This document shows, piece by piece, positions 9,337 through 40,724 of a stretch of 40,724 nucleotides of DNA. Origin of the DNA: Saprospiraceae bacterium. GTDB taxonomy: Bacteria; Bacteroidota; Bacteroidia; Chitinophagales; Saprospiraceae. The notes beneath the pieces were generated by a model. The model was not told where the DNA came from. It did no database searches and worked only from the letters and a program-made list of their open reading frames with translations. A program made the translations under genes and the position numbers. The stretch covers positions 1 through 40,724 of the forward strand of contig JABDKX010000122.1 of NCBI GenBank assembly GCA_013001975.1. Direction: 5' to 3'. Position 1 is the first letter of the stretch. Each line of letters starts with the position of its first letter.

Positions 9337-9340
9337 GTTG

Positions 9341-9411
9341 AGGTCGCGACCAGATTCGAACTGGTGTACAAGGTTTTGCAGACCTCTGCCTAACCGCTCG
9401 GCCACGCGACC
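9341..9411 (-). tRNA. tRNA-Cys (GCA anticodon)
   Basis: The 71-base gene folds into a full cloverleaf. The acceptor stem GGTCGCG/CGCGACC closes it, and the T arm shows CCAG-TTCGAAT-CTGG. The anticodon stem-loop GAGGT-CTGCAAA-ACCTT places GCA as the anticodon (plus-strand bases 9377-9379). The discriminator is U73, which is the identity base expected for tRNA-Cys. CCA is not encoded (the next bases read CAA). A terminator follows directly and a -7 box lies just upstream, so it appears to be transcribed alone. Confidence 0.95.
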
Positions 9412-9425
9412 AATTTTTCGGAAGG

Positions 9426-9433
9426 CAAATATA
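9426..9433 (-). promoter_or_regulatory. -7 box of tRNA-Cys
   Basis: On the minus strand the bases read TATATTTG, matching TAnnTTTG. It ends 14 bases before the tRNA 5' end, a sensible distance for a short leader. A -33 element is not evident. Confidence 0.5.
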
Positions 9434-9567
9434 AAGTAAAATTTATTCACTTTCATGGTTTTCTACTTCATGTCTTTAATTAGACACATATCTTCTGTGT
9501 TAGAAATTATAATGATAATTCGAGTTACTTATAAATCAGGTATTTATACATTTAATTACCTTTCTAT

Positions 9568-9575
9568 TAGATTTG
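9568..9575 (+). promoter_or_regulatory. -7 box before the acetyltransferase operon
   Basis: TAGATTTG matches TAnnTTTG and lies 39 bases before the ATG at 9615. Confidence 0.4.
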
Positions 9576-9614
9576 AAAGATTAAACTTCGAAAACTATAT
9601 ACAACACATTTATA

Positions 9615-10055
9615 ATGAACTCCTTTTTCATTTATAACGCTAAGAAAGAAGACTTATCATGGGTTAATTCCCAATATGCTTCCATCGGTTTCTTACCATC
9701 ATCGATAGAAAACGAAACGATCGATATTGCAGAATACAATGGACAAAAATGTGGACTGGGACGATTAATATATATAGATGACAACAATGTTGAGTTGAGT
9801 GGTATTTATGTTTTAGAAAATTATAGAAAGCAAGGGATTGCTCAAAATATCATTCGATTTTTACTTAAAGATTTTCAACAAACAAATAAAACCATTTGGT
9901 GTCTTCCTTTTAAATTCCTTACACCTTTTTACGAATCATTTGGGCTAGCACAAGTTAATGAAGTAACAACTATTCCTAAGTCAATCGCAAAAAAACGAGA
10001 TTGGTGTCATGAAAACTATGAAACTGAAGTTGTACTTTTATACAAACACATTTAA
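9615..10055 (+). CDS. GNAT-family N-acetyltransferase
   Basis: The 146-residue protein has the GNAT fold signature. Motif A reads LSGIYVLENYRKQGIAQNII near residues 61-80, with the acetyl-CoA pyrophosphate loop RKQGIA. A later segment FLTPFYESFGL corresponds to the family's motif B. It should transfer an acetyl group from acetyl-CoA to an amine; the substrate is not predictable. The following TfoX-like gene begins two bases after its stop, so the two are almost certainly cotranscribed. Confidence 0.85.
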   Translation: MNSFFIYNAKKEDLSWVNSQYASIGFLPSSIENETIDIAEYNGQKCGLGRLIYIDDNNVELSGIYVLENYRKQGIAQNIIRFLLKDFQQTNKTIWCLPFKFLTPFYESFGLAQVNEVTTIPKSIAKKRDWCHENYETEVVLLYKHI

Positions 10056-10057
10056 AG

Positions 10058-10390
10058 GTGAAAACGATTTACGATGAAAACTTAAAACGATACGACAGCA
10101 TCGCAGACCTCTGTCCTCGATTTGATCGAAAGGGAAAAACAATGCCTTATACTTCTGCGAACGGATATATGTTTTCTTTGCTTAACAAAGCTGGAGAGTT
10201 GGGTTTTCGATTTTCAAAAGAAGACCAAGAAGCCTTTGTAAAAAAGTACAATACAACCTTTTTTAAGTCTTACGGAGCTACGATGAAAGGGTATGTTTTG
10301 ATTCCGGAGAAAATGTTTGACAACAAGAAAAATCTTGCTAAGCTTTTAAATAAAAGTTACGACTATGTCATGTCTTTGGAGCCAAAGTAG
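10058..10390 (+). CDS. TfoX/Sxy N-terminal-domain-like protein
   Basis: This 110-residue protein starts with GTG two bases after the acetyltransferase stop; an internal ATG further on would remove conserved sequence. The C-terminal half, FKSYGATMKGYVLIPEKMFD followed by a helix ending in YDYVMSLEPK, matches the pattern of small TfoX N-domain proteins (MKG.V.IP, then AFA.SLPPK). The YTSANGYMFSLLNKAGELGFRFS segment fits the preceding beta strands. In Gammaproteobacteria TfoX controls competence, but the short single-domain versions elsewhere have no settled role. No DNA-binding domain is visible here. Confidence 0.65.
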   Translation: MKTIYDENLKRYDSIADLCPRFDRKGKTMPYTSANGYMFSLLNKAGELGFRFSKEDQEAFVKKYNTTFFKSYGATMKGYVLIPEKMFDNKKNLAKLLNKSYDYVMSLEPK

Positions 10391-10471
10391 GGGTAACGGT
10401 TATTGACTATTCTACTCTTAAATAGTATAAAGTGTTATTTTAGTATACCCCATTTTAACAAAACAAAACCT

Positions 10472-12121
10472 ATGTACCCTAAAAAAAACAAGCTCCCTTT
10501 CGATCCACAAAAAAGTGTTGATTGGTACGACCCTCGCCAATTAGCAAAAACAGGCATAAAGTTTTTAATCTCAACCACGCTTGGAAACTTTGCAGATAAA
10601 AGAGAAATGCAGGCTGCCCTTGATCGAGAAAATGAAAAGCTGCCATATGATTATTCCAACAAAAAAGAAAACTTATGGGTTGATTATATTTCTGACTTGG
10701 GAGATGGTTTTGATGCAACCTATACGATGGCTGTTGAACTTTCCAAACGAGAATTAAGCTTTGAAAACCACAAAACAACACAAGGGAAAATTCTAATCAT
10801 GGGTGGCGATCAAGTTTACCCAGCACCCGATAGGAAAGAATACGACAACAGACTGGCAGGTCCATATGAGACGGCAAACCCATTACGAAAGGGGAAGAAA
10901 AAAAACAGGCCACTTCTTTTTGCTATTCCTGGAAACCATGATTGGTACGATGGGTTAACCAACTTTTTAAAACGGTTTTGTCAAAAAAGACTTTTAGGAA
11001 ATTGGGTGACGGATCAACGCAGAAGCTATTTTGCATTAAAGCTTTCTTCAAAGGTGTGGTTGTTTGGAATCGATATTCAACTTAATTCGGATATTGATAT
11101 TCATCAAATAAACTATTTCAAAAATATCATGGCGTGTTATTTTGAAAGTGGTTGTAAGATAATACTTTGTACTGCTGAACCATCATGGGTTTATAAAACC
11201 TCATACAATAAGAAGCGTTATCAAAATCTAAAATACTTTGAAGGCATCATTTGTAAAAGCTCAAAAGATGCAGAAGTTGTCATTACTCTTGCGGGAGACC
11301 TACATCATTATGCTAGGTATGAAAGTCAAACAGGAACTCAAAAAATCACCGCTGGTGGTGGTGGGGCTTTTATGCACCCGACACATCACCTTCCCGATTC
11401 AATTTCAAAGCTTGGGGATTCAGAAGATGAAACCTTTAATCTAAAAACTTGCTTCCCTTCTCATAAAGAATCCAAAAGGCTTTTATTCCGAAACCTAATT
11501 TTTCCGTTATCTAGTTGGAAGCTATCGATTCTCTTTGGTGTCTTATATTTTGTTTTTGGTTCATCATTAAATATTCACTTTAATTCAAATGCTGCCAACA
11601 TCACTTTTTTTGATTACTTCATTAAGTCAATATTAAATCCGACATCTGTTATTATTATAACGCTTTTATTGTTTTCACTTTTCGTGTTTTCAGATACCAA
11701 TCCATATAATCATAAATTTAAGTCACCTCTTATCTACAAGTTATTTGGATGTTTTCACGGTCTTATTCAGGTTTCTGCTCTTTTGGTTTCTTATTGGTAT
11801 ATCCGCTCCGTTCCTTCTTATTCATTGATACTGATGTTTCTTTGTGGCTGCATTTTGGCGGGCTCTATTTTAGGTGTCTATCTGATTTTATCAAGCTTGA
11901 TTCTAAAAAATCATGACAACGAAGCCTACTCCTCACTAAGGTGGAAAGGGTATAAAAATTTTATCCGACTACATATTACTTCATCTGAAATAACAATATT
12001 TCCAATTGGTGTTAGAGATGTTCCTGAGTGGAATCTTACAAATGGATCAGAGCTGCCTTTTAAATCATCTTTTGATGTTAAGAGCTTTCTTATTGAAGAT
12101 CCGATTGTAATTAAAATATGA
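10472..12121 (+). CDS. Membrane-anchored calcineurin-like metallophosphoesterase
   Basis: I place the start at the ATG at 10472 (549 residues); an ATG-less extension upstream to 10403 adds 23 unlikely residues. The catalytic half shows SDLGDGFD (74-81), GGDQVYP (111-117), GNHDWYD (154-160) and, later, LAGDLHHYARY, together the metal-binding pattern of calcineurin-like phosphoesterases. The usual DxH of the first motif is replaced by DLGD. After about residue 345 come roughly four to five hydrophobic segments (LSILFGVLYFVFGSS, VIIITLLLFSLFVFS, FHGLIQVSALLVSYWYI, LILMFLCGCILAGSILGVYLI) and a soluble tail. No signal peptide is present, so the phosphoesterase domain is probably cytoplasmic. The substrate is unknown. 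The small membrane protein downstream may belong to the same transcript. Confidence 0.85.
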   Translation: MYPKKNKLPFDPQKSVDWYDPRQLAKTGIKFLISTTLGNFADKREMQAALDRENEKLPYDYSNKKENLWVDYISDLGDGFDATYTMAVELSKRELSFENHKTTQGKILIMGGDQVYPAPDRKEYDNRLAGPYETANPLRKGKKKNRPLLFAIPGNHDWYDGLTNFLKRFCQKRLLGNWVTDQRRSYFALKLSSKVWLFGIDIQLNSDIDIHQINYFKNIMACYFESGCKIILCTAEPSWVYKTSYNKKRYQNLKYFEGIICKSSKDAEVVITLAGDLHHYARYESQTGTQKITAGGGGAFMHPTHHLPDSISKLGDSEDETFNLKTCFPSHKESKRLLFRNLIFPLSSWKLSILFGVLYFVFGSSLNIHFNSNAANITFFDYFIKSILNPTSVIIITLLLFSLFVFSDTNPYNHKFKSPLIYKLFGCFHGLIQVSALLVSYWYIRSVPSYSLILMFLCGCILAGSILGVYLILSSLILKNHDNEAYSSLRWKGYKNFIRLHITSSEITIFPIGVRDVPEWNLTNGSELPFKSSFDVKSFLIEDPIVIKI

Positions 12122-12140
12122 GATAAATAGTTGTTGTATT

Positions 12141-12350
12141 ATGAAAAAGGTTTTAAGGTTTATTTCAATGGTGATCTTCTTAAGTAGTTTTATGTTTTTA
12201 GTCTTGTTTTTATGGAACTTTTCTAATGTAGAAATATATACTAAAAAAGACTTAACATTAGATTTGATTCAAGCATTTGCTACAGGCTTAACTATTGAGA
12301 CAGGAATTGCTTTGTTTAATAAAAGACAAAATGCTAAAAATAAAAATTAG
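12141..12350 (+). CDS. Small membrane protein, unrecognised
   Basis: This 69-residue frame starts 19 bases after the phosphoesterase stop on the same strand. It has a basic N-terminus and a strong membrane segment (VIFLSSFMFLVLFLWNF, about 12-28). A weaker hydrophobic helix (DLIQAFATGLTIETGIALF) and a basic tail follow. Topology and spacing look like a real small membrane protein, possibly a partner of the phosphoesterase, but no family is recognisable. Confidence 0.5.
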   Translation: MKKVLRFISMVIFLSSFMFLVLFLWNFSNVEIYTKKDLTLDLIQAFATGLTIETGIALFNKRQNAKNKN

Positions 12351-12390
12351 GAAGTCATGATAATATTACGGCGGTCCACAAAAAAGAAAG

Positions 12391-12551
12391 GAAATAGTAT
12401 TTCTCTTCGCCATCGAACTGTTAGTTGTACGGTGTTTCTATGCCGTTCGTTTCGTTCATCTGTTAATCGAGGTTTGTAACCTCGATGCAATATGCTCTTA
12501 TAGATAATATTTGCCCTCCGAAGTTTCAACCAAGGAGGGCTTTAAACTTCG
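12391..12551. repeat. REP-like cluster of palindromes
   Basis: The gene-free stretch 12351-12755 holds several perfect hairpins close together: GAAAT/ATTTC (12391-12403), ATCGAGGTT/AACCTCGAT (12466-12486, 9 bp, 3-base loop), GCCCTCC/GGAGGGC (12513-12540) and CGAAGTTT/AAACTTCG (12519-12551). The last two are overlapping and mutually exclusive. The bases GTTCGTTTCGT at 12445-12455 are the reverse complement of ACGAAACGAAC at 4628-4638 in the other intergenic repeat block. This suggests a dispersed palindromic element; a structured small RNA is the alternative. Confidence 0.45.
12513..12543 (+). terminator. Possible terminator of the phosphoesterase transcript
   Basis: GCCCTCC and GGAGGGC form a perfect 7-bp GC-rich stem with a 14-base loop, followed only by TTT. 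The short T-run makes it a weak candidate. Confidence 0.35.
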
Positions 12552-12595
12552 AAAAATAATAAAAAAGCCCCGACAAACTAATTTGCCGAGGCTTT
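12551..12595 (-). terminator. Terminator beyond the displaced tRNA-Phe 3' end
   Basis: AAAGCCCCGACAAA (12564-12577) pairs with TTTGCCGAGGCTTT (12582-12595) over 14 positions with two mismatches. The A-rich tract at 12551-12563 gives the U-run on the minus strand. Its position directly next to a copy of the tRNA-Phe 3' end suggests it was the original tRNA-Phe terminator. It would now end the beta-helix operon. Confidence 0.65.
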
Positions 12596-12609
12596 AGTGG
12601 TACCTCCAG
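12592..12609 (-). repeat. 18-bp copy of tRNA-Phe 3' end (candidate distal att site)
   Basis: CTTTAGTGGTACCTCCAG is identical to 19699-19716, which covers the last 12 bases of the intact tRNA-Phe gene plus 6 bases of trailer. Both copies have the same orientation and each is followed by a minus-strand terminator hairpin. The rest of the tRNA is absent here. This is the arrangement left when an element integrates at a tRNA 3' end and displaces the original end. Confidence 0.6.
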
Positions 12610-12755
12610 TACTTGAAGGTGTCTCTTTATGTTGTTGAATAACAACCGTTTATGTTCCCATTTATATTTGGGTGCAAAAAGTGGTACACCTAAAAATGCT
12701 AAAGATGTATCCAAGTCCTGTCTTTAAGTGAAAGTATCTACTACTTATGTTTTAT

Positions 12756-13796
12756 TTAATTCGAGCAATTGATAAGATTATAATCCGCTCCATTACAAAC
12801 TGAATCGAAATGGGTAATTGTATTGGATGCACATATTAAGGCTTGGATGTCTCCTGAACTTAGACTAGATCCTGGTATTTCTAATATGACAAGACCATTA
12901 TTCATATTAGTATTCAGAATATTATTATTTAATAAAATATTTCCATTTGCATCTAAGTCTGTACGTATATACAAGGAAGGTTCACCATCAGGACAATCAT
13001 TACCATCTTGTTCAAGTGTAATATTATTTATTTCATTTAAATTACAATTGCCCTTCATTTTTAAAGTTATGGCTCCAGGCGATTTAAAATGAGAGATGTT
13101 ATTAAAGACGTTGTGATTGCTATCCATCATAGCTATGGCACTTGGATCATCGTCACTAGCATCACAGTCATCTTTAGTGGCTACGTTTCTAAACTCCAAA
13201 TCATTAAACTCATTGTTATGTCCATTGATTATAATGCCATTATCTAAACCATCAAATTTAACCATGTCAACAATGGCACTATCGTCATTCCCGCCTGAAA
13301 TTTCAAGACCTGTTGATGTTTGGTTTAATAGTGAATCTGGTTTAAAGTTAGTTCTTATAGTCAAATTAGATATTTCACAGCCATTACAATCTTCCATTTC
13401 AATGGCAGTATTTCCTGGGCTGCTTAGAGGATCAATACCGATCAGTGAAGTGGCAAAATGTGTGCCGCTTATTTTGCCATTATCTGACAACACAAACGTA
13501 TTATTATCTTTAAGTTTAATAAAAACATCTGCCGGCAATTTTAATTCTTGATCAGTACCAATATTAATCTCATTACAATTCATATCACCCTCCTTAATTC
13601 TTAAAGAATAATCAAAATCACTTTGGTTTTGGTCTAAGAATTTTTTAATTATACAAACGGTGCCATATTGATCAAGCTTTTGCTGTAATTCGCTACAAGA
13701 AATTTCATTCACACCAGGACTTAAAAAAATATATTGACTATAACAAATGGACAAATGAAAAGTCATTATTACTATAAATAAAGATTTTACATACAT
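12756..13796 (-). CDS. Secreted right-handed beta-helix protein (346 aa)
   Basis: A signal peptide (MYVKSLFIVIMTFHLSICYS) is followed by a run of short, Asn/Asp-rich repeats such as GCEISNLTIRTN, GNDDSAIVDMVKFDGLDNG and HNNEFNDLEFRNV. These are typical of parallel beta-helix (NosD/pectate-lyase-like) folds. No catalytic residues of a known lyase class can be picked out, and no type IX sorting domain is visible at the C-terminus (NGADYNLINCSN). It begins 12 bases after the preceding beta-helix gene and is the last gene of a three-gene operon. The function could be polysaccharide binding, degradation or adhesion. Confidence 0.75.
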   Translation of the reverse strand: MYVKSLFIVIMTFHLSICYSQYIFLSPGVNEISCSELQQKLDQYGTVCIIKKFLDQNQSDFDYSLRIKEGDMNCNEINIGTDQELKLPADVFIKLKDNNTFVLSDNGKISGTHFATSLIGIDPLSSPGNTAIEMEDCNGCEISNLTIRTNFKPDSLLNQTSTGLEISGGNDDSAIVDMVKFDGLDNGIIINGHNNEFNDLEFRNVATKDDCDASDDDPSAIAMMDSNHNVFNNISHFKSPGAITLKMKGNCNLNEINNITLEQDGNDCPDGEPSLYIRTDLDANGNILLNNNILNTNMNNGLVILEIPGSSLSSGDIQALICASNTITHFDSVCNGADYNLINCSN

Positions 13797-13808
13797 AACA
13801 AAAGGATT

Positions 13809-15584
13809 TTAATTTTGGATGTTCACTTCGATGGCTTTATTATATTCATCAGGACAATTTGGTATTATAATACCATTACGATTATAATTATTCTTAAAAG
13901 GAACAAAAAGCGGATCTGTAGGTAGTTCACACAAGTTGAGAACATTATTTACACCTACTGCATTTGCCATCAGTACTGGACTTCCACGATGTGCTCTATG
14001 TTCTTCATATCTACATTCTTCACAGTCTTCATTTGGGTCAGCCCTATCCATGCATAAATCCTCATCATCTTCTCTTGATCTAAGCTCTAATACATGCTTA
14101 ACTTGTGCTACACCGTTAATAATATAATTAATATTTGAAAAGGAATTATAAGTCGGTTTTTTAAAAAACATGGTATGTCCAGCTGATTCTAGACATGTGG
14201 CTTTATCTAATGTAATTTGTTCAAGTTCTGTGTTATGAATAAAAGTCTTATTAAAGATACTTATTGTACTTGTACTTTTTAAGAACATATCTGCATTGTT
14301 TTTGTCCAATTGCTTATCATCAGCTTTAAAGTTGACATATTCAGGGTTTCTATTTTGGTCAACCAAATAGCCTTTTAATCCGAAATAATTTAATCGATTT
14401 ACATTTTCACTGTTTAAAAAAACAGCATTATCGTCTAATTTCAATGTAGGATTTTCACATGCATTAAATAATGCCATAAATAATGATACATCATGGCTTT
14501 GATCAATATTCAGCAAATTATCAAGGCTAGTGTTAAATGCTTCTTGATCTTCTGCTCCATCTAAACTCAATATAATTTCTTGGGTATCAAATTCCACTCT
14601 TTTGTTTGGATCCGAAACAGTTATCGGTTGATCCCCTAGCATCGTTCCTGAATATCTATCATCAATAGAATTATCTATCCTGATACCGTATGCATTGGAG
14701 CAATCATCAAAATTTAATCCAGAAAACGCATTATCCGCACAACCCGATACCCACAGACCGTAAGCTTTGATACTATTAAATCGAACATCACTTAATGATA
14801 TGGCATTGGACCATCCTCTTGCATGAAAACCTACTGCAAATCCAGTTATATCAATGTTATGAATTTTTACATAAAAATTCGTAGAATAATCCCGTTGAGT
14901 CATCAACGATTCAAATGGATTATCCATATGAATGGCTCGATCATCTCTAGCTGATGCATTTGGACCATAAGGTGTAACATCATTATTATCTAAAACGATG
15001 TCCTTAATTTGAATCGATCGCACATTTCTTGCACTTTCAGATTTTATTTTAATCAAGCCATCATTCATAGAAACCTGTGTGGTAATTTTTCCACCTTCGA
15101 TTCCACTGTTGTCATCAATAAATGTTATGGCTGCATTATGTCCACTACCTCTATAGTTTAACTCTGAATCACTCAATAATTTTAATATTTTATTACCTCC
15201 CACTTTAATACCATTTACAAACGTAAACTCACCATCGAAACAAATAGTATTATAATGTCTATAAGCTTTTAATAAGTGATTAACGTTGGTCACGGTATTG
15301 ATTCTTTTATATTGAATCTGATTATTTATAATTTTACGTTTTAATACCTTAACAGTACTGTAACATTCTCCATTTATATAACTGACAAATTCATCTAAAT
15401 TACCAATGACACGAGAATTTGTTGTTACTTCTATTGGGGTTGGAGGAGGAAAGGGATCTAACCATTCTTCAGAACTGATAAGTATATCACAATCACAGGA
15501 ATTTTCAACACTCACTTCATTATAGTTCTGTGCATCCAAAGACGTTAGAAAAAGACATGTTATAATTATAAAAATGATTTTCAT
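13809..15584 (-). CDS. Secreted beta-helix protein (591 aa)
   Basis: The signal peptide reads MKIIFIIITCLFLTSLDAQ. The body carries beta-helix-like repeats, for instance NVRSIQIKDIVLDNNDVT, YVKIHNIDITGFAVGFHARG and WSNAISLSDVRFNSIKAYG at about residues 185-275, and a second helix-like stretch after about 370. The C-terminus lacks a clear type IX sorting domain. It resembles the 346-residue protein downstream in style and probably in fold, so the two may be distant paralogues. It lies 19 bases after the small sorting-domain protein and 12 bases before the shorter beta-helix gene, making a tight operon. The enzyme class, if any, is not recognisable. Confidence 0.75.
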   Translation of the reverse strand: MKIIFIIITCLFLTSLDAQNYNEVSVENSCDCDILISSEEWLDPFPPPTPIEVTTNSRVIGNLDEFVSYINGECYSTVKVLKRKIINNQIQYKRINTVTNVNHLLKAYRHYNTICFDGEFTFVNGIKVGGNKILKLLSDSELNYRGSGHNAAITFIDDNSGIEGGKITTQVSMNDGLIKIKSESARNVRSIQIKDIVLDNNDVTPYGPNASARDDRAIHMDNPFESLMTQRDYSTNFYVKIHNIDITGFAVGFHARGWSNAISLSDVRFNSIKAYGLWVSGCADNAFSGLNFDDCSNAYGIRIDNSIDDRYSGTMLGDQPITVSDPNKRVEFDTQEIILSLDGAEDQEAFNTSLDNLLNIDQSHDVSLFMALFNACENPTLKLDDNAVFLNSENVNRLNYFGLKGYLVDQNRNPEYVNFKADDKQLDKNNADMFLKSTSTISIFNKTFIHNTELEQITLDKATCLESAGHTMFFKKPTYNSFSNINYIINGVAQVKHVLELRSREDDEDLCMDRADPNEDCEECRYEEHRAHRGSPVLMANAVGVNNVLNLCELPTDPLFVPFKNNYNRNGIIIPNCPDEYNKAIEVNIQN

Positions 15585-15603
15585 ATCTATAAAAGTATTT
15601 AGG

Positions 15604-16119
15604 TTATTGAACTATAAAATTTGAATGGAAAATTTTTGAATCTGCATTAATGCTTAGGAAATAAATACCCGGAGCCAGTTGAGCTGTATTTATTTTAACC
15701 TCTCTCTCTTTTTTAATGCTATTAAAAAGAACCTTACCTTGTACATCTTGAATAAAAATCTGACAAGAATTAAACGGATGTTTAACTGTCAACTCATCTT
15801 GTACTGGGTTTGGAAATAATATAATGTCTTCCTTCTTAGAGTCATCTCTAGCATAATATTCAATGGGTGGTGCACAATCTATTAAAGTTTCAAATAAAGT
15901 CCTTCGCTGACCATCACCCAAATCTTCGTAGCAAATCCAAGTGCCTGTTTTGACAAACACATCAATTTCATTTAATTCATAACTGATACCGTCAGGGTCT
16001 TCCCAATATCTTGGATATTCGATAGGTGAAGGTAAATCAGGACAATCATAGCATTGTGCAACTAATGACATGGTAATGGTCACAAAGAACACTGACAAAA
16101 GGATTTTAATCTTTTTCAT
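15604..16119 (-). CDS. Small secreted protein with type IX sorting domain
   Basis: I choose the ATG at 16119 (171 residues) because the signal peptide MKKIKILLSVFFVTITMSLV begins there; an upstream in-frame ATG at 16149 adds ten residues before it. After cleavage comes a short Cys-containing segment (CYDCPDLPSPIEYPRYWEDP) of about 70 residues. A type A sorting domain follows: ILFPNPVQDELTVKH, then IFIQDVQGKVL and LAPGIYFLSINADSKIFHSN. It should be exported by the type IX system and anchored or released at the surface. It is the first gene of the beta-helix operon and divergent from the 474-residue protein. The passenger has no recognisable family. Confidence 0.8.
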   Translation of the reverse strand: MKKIKILLSVFFVTITMSLVAQCYDCPDLPSPIEYPRYWEDPDGISYELNEIDVFVKTGTWICYEDLGDGQRRTLFETLIDCAPPIEYYARDDSKKEDIILFPNPVQDELTVKHPFNSCQIFIQDVQGKVLFNSIKKEREVKINTAQLAPGIYFLSINADSKIFHSNFIVQ

Positions 16120-16216
16120 AGAAAAGTTGTTCTGTATTTTAAAAGACAAGAAAGTCTGAAGATTTTCTAATATCTTTACTAATGTATAAAATTATATTTT
16201 ATAATTCAACACTTAT

Positions 16217-17641
16217 ATGAAGTTTAAATTTATCATTGTAGCTTTTTTCCTAACATCTAATTGTCTTTTACTTTCTGGACAAGATTTCTTGAAAAATCAT
16301 TTTTTAGATACATTTGATCCAATAGAATATCTCAATAAAGTAAATTACCTAAATCAACCAAGAAAGATTGTTAAAAACAATAACGATTTTAAAATTAGGT
16401 ATGATAGCATTCTTTTTAGTGATCAATCAAAAATTGATGTAAAAGTTTTCTATGAATTTGACAATGAAAAAAATCATGAAACAGAGTTTTATCACTATTT
16501 GCGAGATGACAAATTTGAACCAACAGCATTTTTCATTTTCAAATTTAATCAAGAAGACCTTTTGAGTGAGATTATATATGCTGACCCTTGGGATGGCGAC
16601 ACAAATGTGCCTGGCAATAACAAGATAAATTGGATAAGAAGAGCAGAATATGATGAAGACAACAAAGTCAAACTTTATTCCCGTTACCTCCTAACAGATG
16701 GGGGTGAAGAATTTTTAACCAGTCAGTATGATCATATCTATAATAAACGAGGCCATCTTTCCGAGTTGCATTACTACTCTTATAGAAATGGCGATTTGAA
16801 ATTATCTGATATTGTATACTACAATTATGAAAATGACTTACTAGTAGAAATTATCGATAAAATCAAATTGGAAGATGACTCTTGGGTAACAGAGGATAGC
16901 ATTGTGTATAAATATTATGCTGACGACAAATTAAAAACAAGAACAAGGTATTATGGTAAGGAAATAGGACGTAATGATAATTTTAACGTAGAACTAAAAT
17001 ATGAATATAATGATCTGGACCAGCTTGTTGGGGATCATGAATATAGAAACTCTGAAAAGGAGAACGGTGGCAAAAGCGTGATTATAAATAAAGCATACCA
17101 CACTTATGATAATTTAGGTAATCGGATTCTCACTGAACATTTTGATTCTACTAATCACAATGGCTTAATAATAACAAATGAGGAACTTTATACATATAAT
17201 CTGGATTATACTTCTGAAGAAACCCAATTGCCAAAACCAAATCCATTTTATTATAACGAAGATATTAATGAACGCTCATCAATCTATCCTATCAAATTAT
17301 ATGAACGCTATGCGTATGAGCAAGGATATGATCGTACTCTTGCTGACAAAGAAGAATACTTCTACTCAGACATCATGACTTCTAATCATTCAATTCCAGA
17401 GGAAGAACTAACGGTATCTGTATATCCTAATCCAACTGAGGATAATTTACAATTGGTATTTGATAATAAAATATCAGAATGTGATATTTCTATTATGGAT
17501 TTGAGTGGCACGCGAGTTATGGATGTTCGTGGTTTTCAATCAGGCGATTCCATTGGTGTTTCTAATTTACCGTCGGGGATTTACTTTTATCAAGTTAGGT
17601 CCGGTGATGGTGTTGGGAGTGGAAGGTTTTTAAAGTTTTAA
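16217..17641 (+). CDS. Secreted YD-like-repeat protein with type IX sorting domain (copy 1)
   Basis: The 474-residue protein starts with a signal peptide (MKFKFIIVAFFLTSNCLLLS). Its middle is a series of Tyr-rich strands such as YDHIYNKRGHLSELHYYSY, YKYYADDKLKTRTRYYG and LKYEYNDLDQLVGDHEYRN, resembling degenerate YD or beta-strand repeats. A C-terminal sorting domain begins near VSVYPNPTEDNLQ and ends GVGSGRFLKF. It is therefore a candidate surface or released cargo of the type IX system. A paralogue of nearly equal length follows at 18136-19554. The central part is almost identical at DNA level while the ends diverge. The role is unknown. Confidence 0.8.
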   Translation: MKFKFIIVAFFLTSNCLLLSGQDFLKNHFLDTFDPIEYLNKVNYLNQPRKIVKNNNDFKIRYDSILFSDQSKIDVKVFYEFDNEKNHETEFYHYLRDDKFEPTAFFIFKFNQEDLLSEIIYADPWDGDTNVPGNNKINWIRRAEYDEDNKVKLYSRYLLTDGGEEFLTSQYDHIYNKRGHLSELHYYSYRNGDLKLSDIVYYNYENDLLVEIIDKIKLEDDSWVTEDSIVYKYYADDKLKTRTRYYGKEIGRNDNFNVELKYEYNDLDQLVGDHEYRNSEKENGGKSVIINKAYHTYDNLGNRILTEHFDSTNHNGLIITNEELYTYNLDYTSEETQLPKPNPFYYNEDINERSSIYPIKLYERYAYEQGYDRTLADKEEYFYSDIMTSNHSIPEEELTVSVYPNPTEDNLQLVFDNKISECDISIMDLSGTRVMDVRGFQSGDSIGVSNLPSGIYFYQVRSGDGVGSGRFLKF

Positions 17642-17656
17642 ATTATATATTTTTCT

Positions 17657-17698
17657 GATACTTTTTCATCGAAAAAAAGTATCCAAAATTCTAGTCAG
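17657..17698 (+). repeat. AT-rich palindromic repeat, copy 1
   Basis: GATACTTTTT (17657-17666) and AAAAAGTATC (17674-17683) form a perfect 10-bp stem, followed by AAAATTCTAGTCA. A related copy lies at 17873-17916. It sits 16 bases after the copy-1 stop codon and could also act as a terminator. Confidence 0.5.
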
Positions 17699-17872
17699 TT
17701 GTAAGGTCGTTTTGCTCTTCTTCAAATCCTCAGCTTTTTATTTACTGCTTTCCGGCTTCTTCAAAGCCTAAATCATGACAGAGTGATCTTTTTAATAAAA
17801 AGTGATGTATGATAATGCATCAAACGAAGGAACAGCGGAAACTGATTTAAATATTTTTATTAACAATTTATT

Positions 17873-17917
17873 TGTTACTTTTTTCATTGAAAAAAAACTA
17901 ACGAAAAATTCTAGTCA
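17873..17917 (+). repeat. AT-rich palindromic repeat, copy 2
   Basis: This copy has the same order as copy 1: a stem of GTTACTTTTTT with AAAAAACTAAC (one mismatch), then AAAAATTCTAGTCA. The remainder of the 494-base gap between the two paralogues (17642-18135) has no convincing gene. Confidence 0.45.
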
Positions 17918-18135
17918 AATTTATGACCGCCCTCTGTGCCGCTCCCACCGCCCACTCAAATTTGACAGGCTCCACTTCTTTATAACTCCTAAATTAAAAT
18001 TTAGAGTTAAAATAATGTTCTTCAGCATGATTAATTTATCAATTAGGATTATCTATACTGGCTAACTGTTCCTTGGAATTTCGTATTTTAGATTTAATAA
18101 TAGTCTTTGTCGTTTTGTCAAATATTAAAACATTA

Positions 18136-19554
18136 ATGAAATTTTTATCTTTCATTTTAGTTTTTCACTTAATAATTAATTGCAATATCCTTTCTGGACA
18201 AGATATCTTGCAAGATCTTGATTTAGATAAATTTGATCCAATAGAATATCTAAATATTGTGAATAAACTTAATCAACCGAGAACAGTTATTAAAAACAAT
18301 AAAAATCATAAGATTAAAATTGATAGTGTCTATTATAGTATTAATTCTGGCATAGAAGGCAGAGAATATTATCAATTTAATATAGAAGAAAATATTGAAC
18401 TAGATTTTTATTATTTATATAAAGATGAGAAATTTGATCCTTGGACATATTTCATTTTTGATTATAATGAAAACAATCAATTAACAACAATTTCATATAC
18501 AAATCCTTGGGACGGTGACTTAAATATACCAGGCGATAATAAACTAAATTGGATCAGAAGAGCTGAATATAATAAAGACAACAAGGTTAAACTTTACTCT
18601 TTCTACGTTCCAACAGAAGATGGCAAAGAATTTTTATATAATCAGTATGATCATATCTATAATAAAAGAGGGCATCTTTCCGAATTGCTCTATTATTCTT
18701 ATGGCAATGGAAAGTTAAATTTAACTGACATTTACTATTATAATTATAAAGATGATTTACTTGTAGAAATCATAGACAAAATCAAATTGGTAGATGACTC
18801 TTGGGTAACAGAGGATAGCATAGTTTATAAATATTATGCTGATGATAAATTAAAAACAAGAACAAGGTATTATGGTAAGGAAATAGGCCGTAGTGATAAT
18901 TTTAACGTAGAACTAAAATATGAATATAATGATCTGGGTCAGCTTGTTGGGGATCATGAATATAGAAACTCTGAAAAGGAGAACGGTGGCAAAAGCGTAA
19001 TTATAAATAAGGCATACCACACTTATGATAATTTAGGTAATCGGATTCTCACTGAACATTTTGATTCTACTAATCACCATGGCTTAGTTATAACAAATGA
19101 GGAACTTTATACATATAATCTAGATTATGCATCTGAAGAAACCCAATTGCCAAAACCAAATCCTTTTTATTATAACGAAGATATTATTGAACGCTCACCA
19201 ATCTATCCTATCAAATTATATGAACGGTATGCATATGAACAAGGTTATGATCGAACTCTTGCTGACAAAGAAGAATACTTCTACTCAGACATTATGACTT
19301 CGACAAATACAGCTCCTGAACCAACGGTATCTGTATATCCTAATCCTGTAGGGGATAAGATTCAGTTAACTTTTGATAATAAGATCTCTGATTGTGAAAT
19401 TTTAATTATGGATTTGAATGGCGCGCGAGTTATGGATGTGCATGGTTTTCGATCTGGCAATTCTATTGATGTGTCTGTCTTGCCATCTGGTGTTTACTTT
19501 TATCAGTTGAGGTCTGGTGATGGTGTTGGGAGTGGGCGGTTTATTAAGTTGTAG
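18136..19554 (+). CDS. Secreted YD-like-repeat protein with type IX sorting domain (copy 2)
   Basis: I start at the ATG at 18136 (472 residues), where MKFLSFILVFHLIINCNILS forms a signal peptide parallel to copy 1; a TTG at 18073 would add 21 residues in front of it. The architecture matches copy 1: a diverged N-terminal third, Tyr-rich repeats (YDHIYNKRGHLSEL, YKYYADDKLKTRTRYYG), and a sorting domain from VSVYPNPVGDKIQL to GSGRFIKL. Bases about 18847-19302 are roughly 95% identical to 16928-17382. The N-terminal third is very AT-rich: only 8 of the 60 bases at 18361-18420 are G or C. Function is unknown; surface display or release is expected. Confidence 0.8.
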   Translation: MKFLSFILVFHLIINCNILSGQDILQDLDLDKFDPIEYLNIVNKLNQPRTVIKNNKNHKIKIDSVYYSINSGIEGREYYQFNIEENIELDFYYLYKDEKFDPWTYFIFDYNENNQLTTISYTNPWDGDLNIPGDNKLNWIRRAEYNKDNKVKLYSFYVPTEDGKEFLYNQYDHIYNKRGHLSELLYYSYGNGKLNLTDIYYYNYKDDLLVEIIDKIKLVDDSWVTEDSIVYKYYADDKLKTRTRYYGKEIGRSDNFNVELKYEYNDLGQLVGDHEYRNSEKENGGKSVIINKAYHTYDNLGNRILTEHFDSTNHHGLVITNEELYTYNLDYASEETQLPKPNPFYYNEDIIERSPIYPIKLYERYAYEQGYDRTLADKEEYFYSDIMTSTNTAPEPTVSVYPNPVGDKIQLTFDNKISDCEILIMDLNGARVMDVHGFRSGNSIDVSVLPSGVYFYQLRSGDGVGSGRFIKL

Positions 19555-19667
19555 GATTAATAAAATAATTTAATCTGATTAATCAAGACCTGATTCAATT
19601 TCTTCTAGGTTTATAATATCGATGGTTTTTGTTCATTATAAACTTTAATCAAAGGTATATATATAAA

Positions 19668-19701
19668 AAGAAGAGTAAGGAGATAAACTCCTTCTCTTCT
19701 T
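19668..19701 (-). terminator. Terminator of tRNA-Phe
   Basis: AAGAAGAG plus AAGGAG (19668-19682, one bulged T) pair with CTCCTT plus CTCTTCTT (19688-19701). The A-run at 19665-19669 supplies a minus-strand U-run. Its sequence is unrelated to the hairpin at the other 18-bp repeat, as expected if it came with an inserted element. Confidence 0.75.
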
Positions 19702-19704
19702 TAG

Positions 19705-19777
19705 TGGTACCTCCAGGAATCGAACCAGGGACACATGGATTTTCAGTCCATTGCTCTACCAACTGAGCTAAGGTACC
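19705..19777 (-). tRNA. tRNA-Phe (GAA anticodon)
   Basis: The 73-base gene has an acceptor stem GGTACCT/AGGTACC, D-loop AGTTGGTAGAGC, and T arm CCTGG-TTCGATT-CCTGG. The anticodon loop CTGAAAA gives anticodon GAA. The discriminator is A73 and CCA is not encoded (the next bases read CTA). It is intact. The last 12 bases of the gene plus 6 of trailer recur exactly at 12592-12609, suggesting it was used as an integration site. A possible -7 box (TAAATTTG on the minus strand, 19860-19867) lies about 83 bases upstream. Confidence 0.95.
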
Positions 19778-20493: not shown

Positions 20494-21585
20494 TTATTCC
20501 GTTTCTAGGTTTTCCTTTTTAATAGCTCTCTTGTGTTTAATAACTCTTGTTATCCAGTTTGGAATAATAATCGCACCGATGATAAGATAAGGATAGTAGG
20601 TAATGACACGCCAGAGTAATGCGCCCAATGAACCAAGTCCTGCAGAAATATAATCCGTAAAAAATCCTGAAAACATTAATTCCATAACGCCCGATCCTCC
20701 TGGTGTTGGACTAAATTGTGTGATCACATACATTGTCTGTGACCGTGCATAAATTAAAAATTGCTCCATCATATCGAAGTCCATTTCTACCAAGGCCAAA
20801 ATAATAAAGTTTACCGCTACAAATCTCATCACCCAAGCTCCGACTGTTGTTGCTATAGCCTTTAAGTGAAAACGCTTTGGCATTTTTCTTATCTCTTGAG
20901 ATGTCAGAACAACATCTTGACCCGTTTTTACTAATGTTCTTTTAAACCTTCTGATTAACGGTAATTTAGATAAACCAAATAAAATGTTTTTTATAATTCT
21001 AGGCCTAAACAATCCCCAAACCAAAATCGTAGCGTAAGCCAAAATAAATAACCATACAATCATATAAGTAATACCATATGGTTGCAACATACTTTCCATA
21101 TCTGGTCGGATCAATGGTGGTCCAAATATCATTAGCAGCAATACCATGGATACCAAAAAGAAAAAAGAGTCAATGATGACAGTGTACATCACAATAGAAA
21201 CCGCTTTGGCGGGCGAAATCTTTTCTTGTGATAGGAAAAAAACCGCAACAGCTGACCCTCCAATACTTGTAGGCGAAATTGCAGAAGCAAACTCCCAAAT
21301 GAAAACCAATTCTACTGCATGCCTGAATCTGAAAGCACCATTAGATAATACCATCAACCTGATCGCATAAAAAATATGCCTCAAAACATATATCATAACA
21401 GCACACCCAAGATAAAACCAAAGGCGGTTGTTCCACTTTATTTGACTGAATTCCTCAAGGTCAAATTGACGAAAAGCCATATAGATAATAACAGCTACCC
21501 CCAATAAAACAGGTAGAATGATCTTAGACAACTTCAGAGAGTCCAAGACTTTCACATCTTTATCTATAGCATTATTGTTGCTCAA
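20494..21585 (-). CDS. Flippase-like integral membrane protein (UPF0104 / LPG synthase TM type)
   Basis: The 363-residue protein is almost entirely membrane segments, about seven to eight of them, with the family marks GGSAVAVFFLSQE (about 99-111) and TQFSPTPGGSGVMELMFSGF (about 291-310). This is the membrane domain that MprF-type lysyl-phosphatidylglycerol synthases carry, but the cytoplasmic synthase domain is missing. Stand-alone members may move lipid-linked molecules across the inner membrane; the substrate is unknown. The C-terminus is basic (HKRAIKKE). No partner gene is adjacent. Confidence 0.85.
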   Translation of the reverse strand: MSNNNAIDKDVKVLDSLKLSKIILPVLLGVAVIIYMAFRQFDLEEFSQIKWNNRLWFYLGCAVMIYVLRHIFYAIRLMVLSNGAFRFRHAVELVFIWEFASAISPTSIGGSAVAVFFLSQEKISPAKAVSIVMYTVIIDSFFFLVSMVLLLMIFGPPLIRPDMESMLQPYGITYMIVWLFILAYATILVWGLFRPRIIKNILFGLSKLPLIRRFKRTLVKTGQDVVLTSQEIRKMPKRFHLKAIATTVGAWVMRFVAVNFIILALVEMDFDMMEQFLIYARSQTMYVITQFSPTPGGSGVMELMFSGFFTDYISAGLGSLGALLWRVITYYPYLIIGAIIIPNWITRVIKHKRAIKKENLETE

Positions 21586-38137: not shown

Positions 38138-38677
38138 ATGAGTAATAAAGTATCTAAATCTCTAGAAAAACTCGTTAGTTTATTTCCAGAGATTGCCCCT
38201 CCAATAACAATTTCAGAAGAATCAGTAATTGCTTTTAGTTCCAAAAACAAACCAATTTCATTGGATTTAATGGATGAATATTTTTCTGTTTGGGACCAAA
38301 TCGATGAATTTACCGAAATGGTGCCATGTTTTCAGCTCAATATATCTGATGGCTATTACGCGCTTGTTTATTGGAAGGGATCACTTTTAACTTATGAATA
38401 CATATTAATTACTTTAGATAAAAACAATACATTAATATCTAAAAAGGTCATAGCTGGAACAATCAGCAATGGACAAACAATAAAAAAATCTGTAGCTACA
38501 ATCGATGAAGAATATTGTATCTACACAGCCGTTGGAGAGCAAGATGTTTCAATTAGAAACTACATTCCTACTAATAGCTCCGCTTTTAAATTCGAAATAG
38601 AACCTGATGGAACTATAAGCTCTTCACAAGAAGAAAATTATTTATGGGAAGAAGAAAACCAAAAAAGAAAAAATTAG
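38138..38677 (+). CDS. Unrecognised cytoplasmic protein overlapping rnr
   Basis: The 179-residue protein has no signal peptide, membrane segment or recognisable motif. It looks like a compact, mostly beta globular protein (YALVYWKGSLLTYEYILITL in the middle) with an acidic, charged C-terminal tail. Its last 34 bases overlap the start of rnr in another frame, so translation of rnr may depend on it. That link to RNase R is the only functional hint. It starts very close to a good -7 box. Confidence 0.8.
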   Translation: MSNKVSKSLEKLVSLFPEIAPPITISEESVIAFSSKNKPISLDLMDEYFSVWDQIDEFTEMVPCFQLNISDGYYALVYWKGSLLTYEYILITLDKNNTLISKKVIAGTISNGQTIKKSVATIDEEYCIYTAVGEQDVSIRNYIPTNSSAFKFEIEPDGTISSSQEENYLWEEENQKRKN

Positions 38678-40724
38678 GCACTGACCAACTCAAAAACTAC
38701 CTCTTAAAGTATTTTTTAAAGAATCCTAAAAAAAGAATGAATGCGTCTCAACTAAGCAAAAAGCTAAAGTTGAAAGTCAGTAAAGATGCTATTAACCACG
38801 CCCTCAGTAAACTGTTATCAAAAAATGTTTTACGTCAAGTTTCAGATCACAAGTTTGTTCTGGATAAAAATTATATTTCTAAAGAAAGAAAAGTAAAAGA
38901 ACCTAGTAAAAATCTAATCGGTCGCGTCGCTATGATAAAGTCTGGTGCTGCCTATATTATTGTGCCGAACAATGAAGAAGATATTTATGTCCCTGCTAAG
39001 TTTTTAGGAACTGCTCTAAATGGTGATGAAGTTGAAATCAGTATTTCAAAATACAAGGGCAGAAAACCAGAAGGAAAAGTTGTCTCTGTAGTCAAAAGAA
39101 ATACAACTCAAATAATGGGTAAAATTCTAACGTTTAGAAAGTATGGAATTGTCACTTCTAGCAGCAGAAAAAACCCTTTTGATGTTTTTGTAAACCCAAA
39201 AGATTTTAATGGTGCGAAAAAAGGAGATCGTGTGCTTATTGACATAACAGACTGGGGAAGCAACAAAGACCAAATGATTTGGGGTAAAGTCAAGAAGATC
39301 ATGAACGACCTCGATGATCATAACTGGACCATGGAAAACATCTTAGTTGAAAATGGCTTCTCGTCAGATTATCCAGACGAGGTTATGGAACAAGTAAAAA
39401 AGATATCGGATGAAATTTCTGAAGAAGAAATATCAAACAGAAGAGACTTCAGAGATGTTCTTACGTTTACGATCGATCCCGATACAGCGCAAGATTTTGA
39501 TGATGCCATTTCATATGAAGAATTAGAAAATGGTAATCTGGAAATAGGTGTTCATATTGCGGATGTTACGCATTATATGAAAGCCAATACACCTTTGGAT
39601 AAAGAAGCTTTTGCAAGGTCAACATCGGTTTACTTAGTAGATCGCTGTATCGCTATGCTTCCAGAAAAACTTTCAAACAACCTCTGTAGCCTTGTACCAA
39701 ATAAGGATCGCTTGGTCTTTAGTGCTGTTTTTGAATTTAACAAGAAACACAAGATGGTTAGAGAGTGGTTTGGTCGATCTATAATTCATTCAGACAAACG
39801 ATTTACTTATGATGAAGGCCAAAAATCTTTAGACAATAAAAACGGACTTTTCCATCGCGAATTAACTGCAATAAATAAAGTTGCCCACAGCTTACGAAAA
39901 GAAAAGTTTAAAAATGGCGCTATTGCATTTGAGTCCGATGAAATAAAATTCATCCTTGATGAGGACAATAGGCCGACAGGCGTTTTTGTCAAACAAAGAA
40001 AGGATGTACACATGCTTATTGAGGACTTTATGTTATTGGCAAACAAGCGTGTGGCAAAATTCGTGGCTACAAAAAATAAAGAAAATCCAATCCCTAACGT
40101 ATATAGAATACACGACGTACCTGATGTGGAACGTCTGGTTGAGTTAAAGTCTCTTATGGAGGAGTATGATGTTACCCTAGATTTGTCATCACCAGACAAA
40201 ATCGCGGAATCCTTTAATACGTTGTCAGAAAAATCCAAGACTGATGATAAGTATAAGCTCTTGATGGGCTTTGCGATCAGGACAATGGCTAAAGCAGTGT
40301 ATTCAACAGATAACATCGGTCACTATGGTTTGCACTTCGAACACTATACGCATTTTACATCTCCCATCAGGCGGTATTCAGACGTTCTGGTTCACAGAAT
40401 CTTAGCTCAAAACTTAAAGAAGGAAAAGAGAGAAGACAAAGCAAAGTTAGAGGCTAAATGTGTCCATATTTCTAAGCAAGAACGTCGGGCCATGGAAGCA
40501 GAAAGAGATTCCATTAAGTACAAACAAGTAGAATATATGTCTGATCATATTGGTGAAGAATATGTCGGCATTGTTTCTGGGATGATTGAAAAGGGAATCT
40601 TTGTTGAAGTCTCTGAAACGAAAGCAGAAGGATTAATTCCTTTCAACAATATGTCAGACAACTATGTGGTTGAACAGGGAAGGTACTTGGCAAGAAGCTT
40701 ACACTCAAAGAAAAAGCTTATGTT
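38644..40724 (+). CDS. rnr: Ribonuclease R, 3' end outside the window
   Basis: The frame opens with ATG at 38644 and runs to the window edge, about 693 residues. A basic N-terminus (MGRRKPKKKK) and winged-helix region (about 12-75) precede two cold-shock-type domains (about 90-220). The RNB catalytic domain follows: FTIDPDTAQDFDDAIS places catalytic acidic residues D278, D284, D286 and D287. HYTHFTSPIRRYSDVLVHR is another family mark. The S1 domain begins near EEYVGIVSGMIEKGIFVEV before the edge. The enzyme degrades structured RNA 3' to 5' in the cytoplasm. The start overlaps the preceding gene by 34 bases. VacB/RNase II-type members share these motifs, but the extended N-terminus supports RNase R. 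Confidence 0.95.
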   Translation, partial: MGRRKPKKKKLGTDQLKNYLLKYFLKNPKKRMNASQLSKKLKLKVSKDAINHALSKLLSKNVLRQVSDHKFVLDKNYISKERKVKEPSKNLIGRVAMIKSGAAYIIVPNNEEDIYVPAKFLGTALNGDEVEISISKYKGRKPEGKVVSVVKRNTTQIMGKILTFRKYGIVTSSSRKNPFDVFVNPKDFNGAKKGDRVLIDITDWGSNKDQMIWGKVKKIMNDLDDHNWTMENILVENGFSSDYPDEVMEQVKKISDEISEEEISNRRDFRDVLTFTIDPDTAQDFDDAISYEELENGNLEIGVHIADVTHYMKANTPLDKEAFARSTSVYLVDRCIAMLPEKLSNNLCSLVPNKDRLVFSAVFEFNKKHKMVREWFGRSIIHSDKRFTYDEGQKSLDNKNGLFHRELTAINKVAHSLRKEKFKNGAIAFESDEIKFILDEDNRPTGVFVKQRKDVHMLIEDFMLLANKRVAKFVATKNKENPIPNVYRIHDVPDVERLVELKSLMEEYDVTLDLSSPDKIAESFNTLSEKSKTDDKYKLLMGFAIRTMAKAVYSTDNIGHYGLHFEHYTHFTSPIRRYSDVLVHRILAQNLKKEKREDKAKLEAKCVHISKQERRAMEAERDSIKYKQVEYMSDHIGEEYVGIVSGMIEKGIFVEVSETKAEGLIPFNNMSDNYVVEQGRYLARSLHSKKKLM

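Follow-up and report, generated by a model that had tools for sequence, protein, structure and literature searches.

Gene content of the locus

The window, that is, the whole 40,724-nucleotide stretch of Saprospiraceae DNA that was analysed here, contains a block of five genes framed by two exact copies of an 18-mer, CTTTAGTGGTACCTCCAG, the right one of which forms the end of a tRNA-Phe gene (Table 1). The genes were taken from a list of open reading frames, signal peptides were judged by eye, and the names Small, Big and YD were coined in this analysis. Three of the genes lie on the minus and two on the plus strand, and their signal-like starts agree with an earlier, preliminary description of the locus, in which all five were taken to encode secreted proteins. 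A type IX sorting tail is present on three of the five products. The island amounts to a four-gene module in which one gene (YD) is duplicated, and only 144 and 145 bp lie between this module and the two 18-mers.

The absence of a recognisable integrase, also put forward in the preliminary description, is confirmed for the five products, among which neither an integrase nor any other mobility family was found in Pfam, NCBIfam or PHROGs; in addition, the open reading frames and Pfam gave no transposase within the island, and PADLOC gave no defence-system match for the five products at E <= 0.1. Two matches of Big that fall below the family cut-offs (YunG-like in Pfam, E 0.0028; YbaB in NCBIfam, E 0.013) were not used. 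The AT-richness described for parts of the island is likewise evident, with 8 G+C counted in 18361-18420, and the five genes have a GC of 0.302-0.331 and a GC3 of 0.215-0.257, both lower than in 24 other genes of the window (one-sided Mann-Whitney p = 0.0007 and 0.0004, respectively), at least five other open reading frames (3-1301, 1303-1890, 12141-12350, 38138-38677 and 38644-40722) lying outside this comparison.

The two YD genes differ by a dN of 0.153 and a dS of 0.543, values that suggest purifying selection on the pair. They are mosaic, with 95-97% DNA identity in codons 241-360 versus 62-78% in codons 1-200 and 401-472, a pattern suggestive of gene conversion. The earlier characterization of the island as decayed or externally mobilised therefore holds in part: it lacks an integrase, but its cargo, with full-length open reading frames and these dN and dS values, shows no visible decay. 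The structure model of Small, obtained from a three-sequence alignment, is a beta-helix (pLDDT 78.6), of which the general fold alone is usable, since the best PDB match, a PL6 alginate lyase (E 7e-4), is weak (TM-scores 0.35/0.19). The model of Big (pLDDT 51.4) is too poor for a fold call and gave no PDB match at E <= 0.001. As a guess from these models, the beta-helix pair may bind or cut polysaccharide, and the cargo as a whole could be one of secreted polysaccharide-active or adhesive proteins.

Table 1. Features of the tRNA-Phe island and its borders, in window coordinates
Feature	Position	Strand	Basis
Left terminator, read as the original tRNA-Phe terminator	12564..12595	minus	Alignment to relatives' terminators
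Displaced tRNA-Phe 3' end, left copy of the 18-mer	12592..12609	minus	Exact repeat; counts in window, assembly and genus
GTA before the core, versus TTC in the tRNA; also in displaced ends of G001, G003, G005 and G013	12610..12612	minus	
TGTACCAC / TGCACCCA, probably paired arm sites of an integrase (12-bp spacing; distances to the core 76 and 64 bp)	12669..12688	minus	
Small, secreted, 346 aa, modelled beta-helix	12756..13796	minus	ORF list, structure model
Big, secreted, 591 aa, N-terminal half probably beta-helix (poor model)	13809..15584	minus	
Small secreted protein with type IX sorting tail	15604..16119	minus	PF18962 E 7.6e-13, TIGR04183
YD-like secreted protein 1 (YD1), type IX sorting tail	16217..17641	plus	PF18962 E 2e-12
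YD-like secreted protein 2 (YD2), type IX sorting tail, 75% identical to YD1	18136..19554	plus	PF18962 E 2.4e-12
Terminator now behind tRNA-Phe, read as insert-borne	19667..19702	minus	Sequence; unlike left terminator
Right copy of the 18-mer: last 12 tRNA bases plus trailer	19699..19716	minus	Sequence, repeat search
Intact tRNA-Phe (gaa), integration target	19704..19777	minus	ARAGORN, anticodon-arm pattern

The repeat pair and the tRNA-Phe target

The preliminary description, in which the 18-mer pair was proposed to frame an inserted element, had named as evidence against itself an 18-mer common away from tRNA genes; no such copies were found, the two being the only matches in the window with up to three mismatches (0 in shuffled sequences) and the only ones in the 4.2-Mb assembly with up to two. 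The pair thus frames the five genes and occurs nowhere else in the assembly. ARAGORN bears out the reading of the right copy as the end of an intact minus-strand tRNA-Phe together with its trailer, the tRNA part comprising the final 12 bases through the discriminator (13 in the ARAGORN count), and an anticodon-arm pattern search found this tRNA-Phe alone in the assembly. The tRNA-Cys at 9340-9411 was rejected as an insertion site; no repeat of its 3' end is present in the window.

The tRNA-Phe 3' end was searched as the exact CTGGAGGYRCCAC in 14 genomes of the genus, G000 being the window's own; here, as in most comparisons, draft assemblies were used. The 19 sites comprise nine in tRNA-Phe, five displaced ends and five others, against two for the reversed pattern. 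The five other sites were dropped, four of them lying in an open frame and G006:C382 lying outside a frame without a visible terminator, and so were 12 near-matches inspected as displaced-end candidates. The 3' end occurs in the tRNA alone in six of the 14 genomes (G002, G004, G006, G008, G010 and G011), in the tRNA and a displaced copy in three (G000, G003 and G013) and as a displaced copy alone in two (G001 and G005); neither form was found in the remaining three (G007, G009 and G012), which are 53-82% complete. The core is preceded by GTA in all five displaced ends of the genus (G000, G001, G003, G005 and G013), in place of the TTC of the tRNA, and the search leading to this result did not require GTA. 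A separate search of 248 family genomes, which did require it, gave six sites in five genomes, four of them displaced ends (G000, G005, and the additional genomes G077 and G129); the sites G000:C219 and G086 were dropped, the first for its open frame and the second because no terminator was visible.

The left copy might alternatively be the stump of a second tRNA-Phe, left by a tandem duplication with later loss of the 5' part, in which case the genes between the copies would be ordinary chromosomal ones, and such an event would be expected to leave a tRNA 3' end followed by a good terminator. This origin is nevertheless highly improbable: the 58 bases before the core show no likeness to tRNA-Phe beyond that of shuffled sequence, either in the window or at six other displaced ends, the GTA found at all five displaced ends of the genus is not the TTC of a tRNA, and the interval from one end to the other in G077 is occupied exactly by an element with an integrase.

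Probable old and new terminators

Both terminators were identified by eye. The left one is best read as the old one because its alignment scores match the terminators of relatives and not the one now behind the tRNA. Its region scored 50 against the sequence after the displaced end of G013 (shuffle mean 16; 0 of 500 shuffles as high) and 36, 28 and 27 against the tRNA-Phe terminators of G004, G010 and G008, respectively (shuffle means 14-17; 0, 0 and 1 of 500 as high), and the terminator resembling it stands directly behind tRNA-Phe in these last three genomes. Against the present tRNA terminator of the window, the score was 15, which is the chance level (351 of 500 shuffles as high), and against the tRNA terminators of G013 and G002 it was 20 (92 of 500) and 13 (468 of 500). 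Both statements of the preliminary description, namely that the left terminator looks like the original one of tRNA-Phe and that the present one is unrelated to it, are thereby supported, the former by G004, G008, G010 and the far side of the G013 insert. The situation in G003 is peculiar, as nearly identical terminators follow its tRNA-Phe and its displaced end, together with a similar GTGCCGTAAGG/GTACCGTAAGG stretch (L038, L083); possibly, two strains are combined in this one draft genome. As they stand, these twin terminators do not fit the idea that each insert brings its own.

Variation downstream of tRNA-Phe in the genus

The gene next to tRNA-Phe in the window, which is taken here to be ogt-like, has a match in nine other genomes of the genus, with an adjacent tRNA-Phe detected by ARAGORN in eight of the nine and a contig end in G009; no match was found in four further genomes of the genus. 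The genes past the terminator are common to G004, G008 and G010, and to G002 in another arrangement. The variation of this junction among relatives that the preliminary description called for is therefore seen, some sites having a single tRNA end and others a different insert. The left-flank genes of the window are absent from the relatives examined, so the region has been rearranged, and the empty form of the exact junction was not seen among them. A metallophosphatase gene at 10403-12121 was dropped as a left-flank marker, with matches in two of the 14 genomes, the second of which (G008) is weak and partial. The genes downstream of tRNA-Phe in relatives do not match window positions 9412-12550, and the metallophosphatase has no full relative in the 13 other genomes; this stretch, on the left side of the island, may be variable as well.

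The insert-side genes at the displaced end of G005 look chromosomal, as far as we can judge. Past the displaced end of G001 (L081 5194-10591), toxin-like remnants were recognised by eye, and the contig end carries a relative of window 20494-21585, which in the window flanks the other side of the tRNA; this placement represents an unexplained rearrangement or an assembly error. Open reading frames that are presumably of the toxin-antitoxin type lie just past the displaced end in G005 (L082 5718-5975) and G001 (L081 5500-5672). In G006 (L039 4436-4720), a repeat with TTCCTGGAGG, in two copies 151 bp apart, is located behind tRNA-Phe at the contig edge.

Integrases and probable arm sites at tRNA-Phe

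G013, the nearest relative by the ogt-like protein (69%), encodes a 515-aa tyrosine integrase directly downstream of tRNA-Phe, the gene starting about 110 bp away; it is followed by a ParB-domain gene and the contig end, and the displaced end lies on a separate contig. The use of this integrase as a guide was abandoned, as it gave partial matches in four other genomes of the genus and in G013, at 37% identity or less and none near full length. In G077, which belongs to another genus, tRNA-Phe (137937-138010) and the displaced end (131460) are on the same contig, with cores 6,477 bp apart, and the element of about 6.5 kb between them has a 457-aa integrase with an arm-binding domain adjoining tRNA-Phe, followed by an unassigned gene and genes for an HTH protein, a DUF3987 protein (helicase in PHROGs) and a DUF6371 protein; no relaxase was found among the five proteins of this element that were scanned.

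Pairs of words 12 bp apart precede the core by 56-79 bp in G001, G003, G005, G077 and G129 (shuffle fractions 0 to 0.03), and the repeat on the displaced-end side of G013 has a spacing of 21 bp. In the window, the pair TGTACCAC/TGCACCCA matches the arm word of G077/G129 at 13/16 in a post hoc test (p = 0.00015) and is a probable pair of integrase arm sites, judging from the sequence. The arm word of the G001 type does not fit in the window (8/16, p = 0.90), no arm sites were found on the tRNA side of the window (9/16, p = 0.39), and the unguided repeat test picks a different, AT-rich pair.

The module in other genomes and a probable second insertion site

G001 carries counterparts of Small (32% identity), Big (29%), the sorting-tail protein (25%) and one YD protein (23%), with order and relative direction kept, in a module that adjoins the displaced tRNA-Phe end, and the same set of four is found in G010 (37, 37 and 37%, and 22% over 485 columns versus YD2). 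In G005, a YD relative with an inner stop lies beside what appears by eye to be the start of a Big gene. Big was matched in three of 60 relatives, its own genome counted, and at full length in three of 398 family genomes, all of this genus, with one short weak match each in G013 and G134. A scan of 84,980 genomes with the alignment pattern of Big led to two confirmed loci, which are the G010 and G001 contigs, although such a scan can miss relatives because it is based on two short peptide patterns. Pattern matches to Big and Small in viral contigs (57 and 44 stretches) yielded no confirmed relative.

G010 has no second copy of the tRNA-Phe end, and the neighbours of its module are genes assumed to be rpsT-like and mlaD-like. 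The module is framed there by a 35-bp direct repeat, 33 positions identical, that reproduces the terminal codons of the mlaD-like gene (alignment score 29 versus a maximum of 14 in 2,000 shuffles), with a period of 5,016 bp inside which the list of open reading frames shows the four module genes only. In 11 of the 13 other genomes of the genus, rpsT and an mlaD-like stretch are convergent, 11-813 bp apart, and the distance is within 120 bp in six (G000, G002, G003, G004, G008 and G012); no convergent arrangement was found in G007, and G013 has the two on the same strand. In G006 (L159 1766-2316), the gap between rpsT and the mlaD-like gene contains a degraded additional copy of the end of that gene (score 30, maximum 16 in 1,000 shuffles), and the mlaD-like gene end may therefore be a recurrent insertion point.

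The confinement of full-length Big to one genus, at 29-40% identity, is a pattern that fast-evolving inherited secreted proteins might also show, so that the module could have been inherited vertically and caught in rearrangements beside an unrelated tRNA-Phe insertion, the repeats then being uninformative on its arrival. The rearrangement among species of the region downstream of tRNA-Phe is compatible with such a history, and so is the direction of the module relative to the displaced end, which in G000 is opposite to that shared by G001 and G010. Vertical inheritance is nevertheless quite unlikely, as the module occupies the whole interval from one tRNA end to the other in G000 and the interval enclosed by a 35-bp repeat of another gene's end in G010, and Big is unmatched in 10 of the 13 other genomes of the genus (the short weak match in G013 appeared in one search). 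The opposite orientations in G000 and G001 may also reflect a late entry of the module, by transposition or other recombination, into an already decayed tRNA-Phe relic; no integrase is left in G000 or G010, and the edge of the G001 contig carries, adjacent to the module, a coding end that is presumably IS-like. The lack of a transposase in the window island and the mere 144 and 145 bp to the 18-mers argue against this entry route, which is somewhat unlikely.

Probable origin of the island

In summary, the region 12592-19716 is very likely what is left of an element that entered the 3' end of tRNA-Phe through a tyrosine recombinase. This interpretation is based on the restriction of the 18-mer to the two ends, the homology of the left terminator to those of relatives, the GTA at five of five displaced ends of the genus, the integrases beside tRNA-Phe in G013 and G077, the arm pair in the window, and the lower GC and GC3 of the island genes; the geometry inferred in the preliminary description, with the island inserted at the tRNA 3' end and the old end pushed to the far side, finds its support in the relatives and in these two integrases. 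The interpretation is weakened by the lack of an integrase and of tRNA-side arm sites in the window, the post hoc nature of the arm test, the absence of the empty form of this junction among relatives whose left flanks differ from that of the window, the draft state of most assemblies compared, the twin terminators of G003, the chromosomal-looking genes of G005 and the misplaced flank gene of G001.

The duplicated tRNA end, the displaced old terminator, the variable occupancy, the integrases of relatives and the module within a second gene-end repeat are features of the locus and its relatives; the events behind them would be the following. An element with the core GTA-CTGGAGGTACCAC would have recombined with the tRNA-Phe end, the insert supplying a new terminator for the tRNA, and the integrase and replication genes would later have been lost, or were never present, the integrase of another element being used. 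What would remain between the ends is the secreted-protein module, with one gene duplicated, presumably kept by selection. It is doubtful that the module is an integrase-less travelling unit, moved in trans and in either orientation by integrases of different target choice, which would place it precisely within repeats of the tRNA-Phe 3' end in one species and of the mlaD-like gene end in another; if it does move in this way, it would constitute a compact hitchhiking cassette of secreted proteins. The tRNA-Phe and the mlaD-like gene end emerge as insertion points for secreted-protein genes in Saprospiraceae, and the shrinkage of a small integrative element can be traced across loci that have a single tRNA end, an integrase-bearing insert or cargo alone.

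Comparison with known systems

The island is best read as behaving in the manner of a cis-mobilizable element (CIME) or of an additive genomic island, the module being able to occupy more than one integration site. CIMEs have lost their integration and transfer genes and kept attL and attR (PMC5704250). The island resembles them in being framed by a duplicated tRNA 3' end, in lacking an integrase and in having integrase-bearing relatives at the same site, and differs from them in that the core is present at both ends whereas probable arm sites occur at one end of the island, the left. Furthermore, the integrase-bearing relatives that were inspected revealed no transfer genes, the element of G013 being partly assembled, so that an ancestry in a conjugative or mobilizable element would be hypothetical.

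Additive flexible genomic islands, for which PMC10872708 gives the tRNA-Lys case of Methylophilaceae with repeats of the tRNA 3' end, share with this locus variable genes bounded by repeats of about the last 20 tRNA bases; here, in contrast, there is one cassette with two copies of the 18-mer and not a row of cassettes. Tycheposons (PMC10872708, PMC11389934) carry cargo at a tRNA gene and their own tyrosine recombinase; cargo at a tRNA gene is found here too, the recombinase being present in relatives of the island and absent from the window. The tRNA-Phe elements of G077 and G013 differ from the window, with its secreted cargo, in having an integrase by the tRNA, accompanied in G077 by HTH and helicase-like genes, and resemble it in the shared target, the core with GTA and, in G077, the arm pair at 12-bp spacing.
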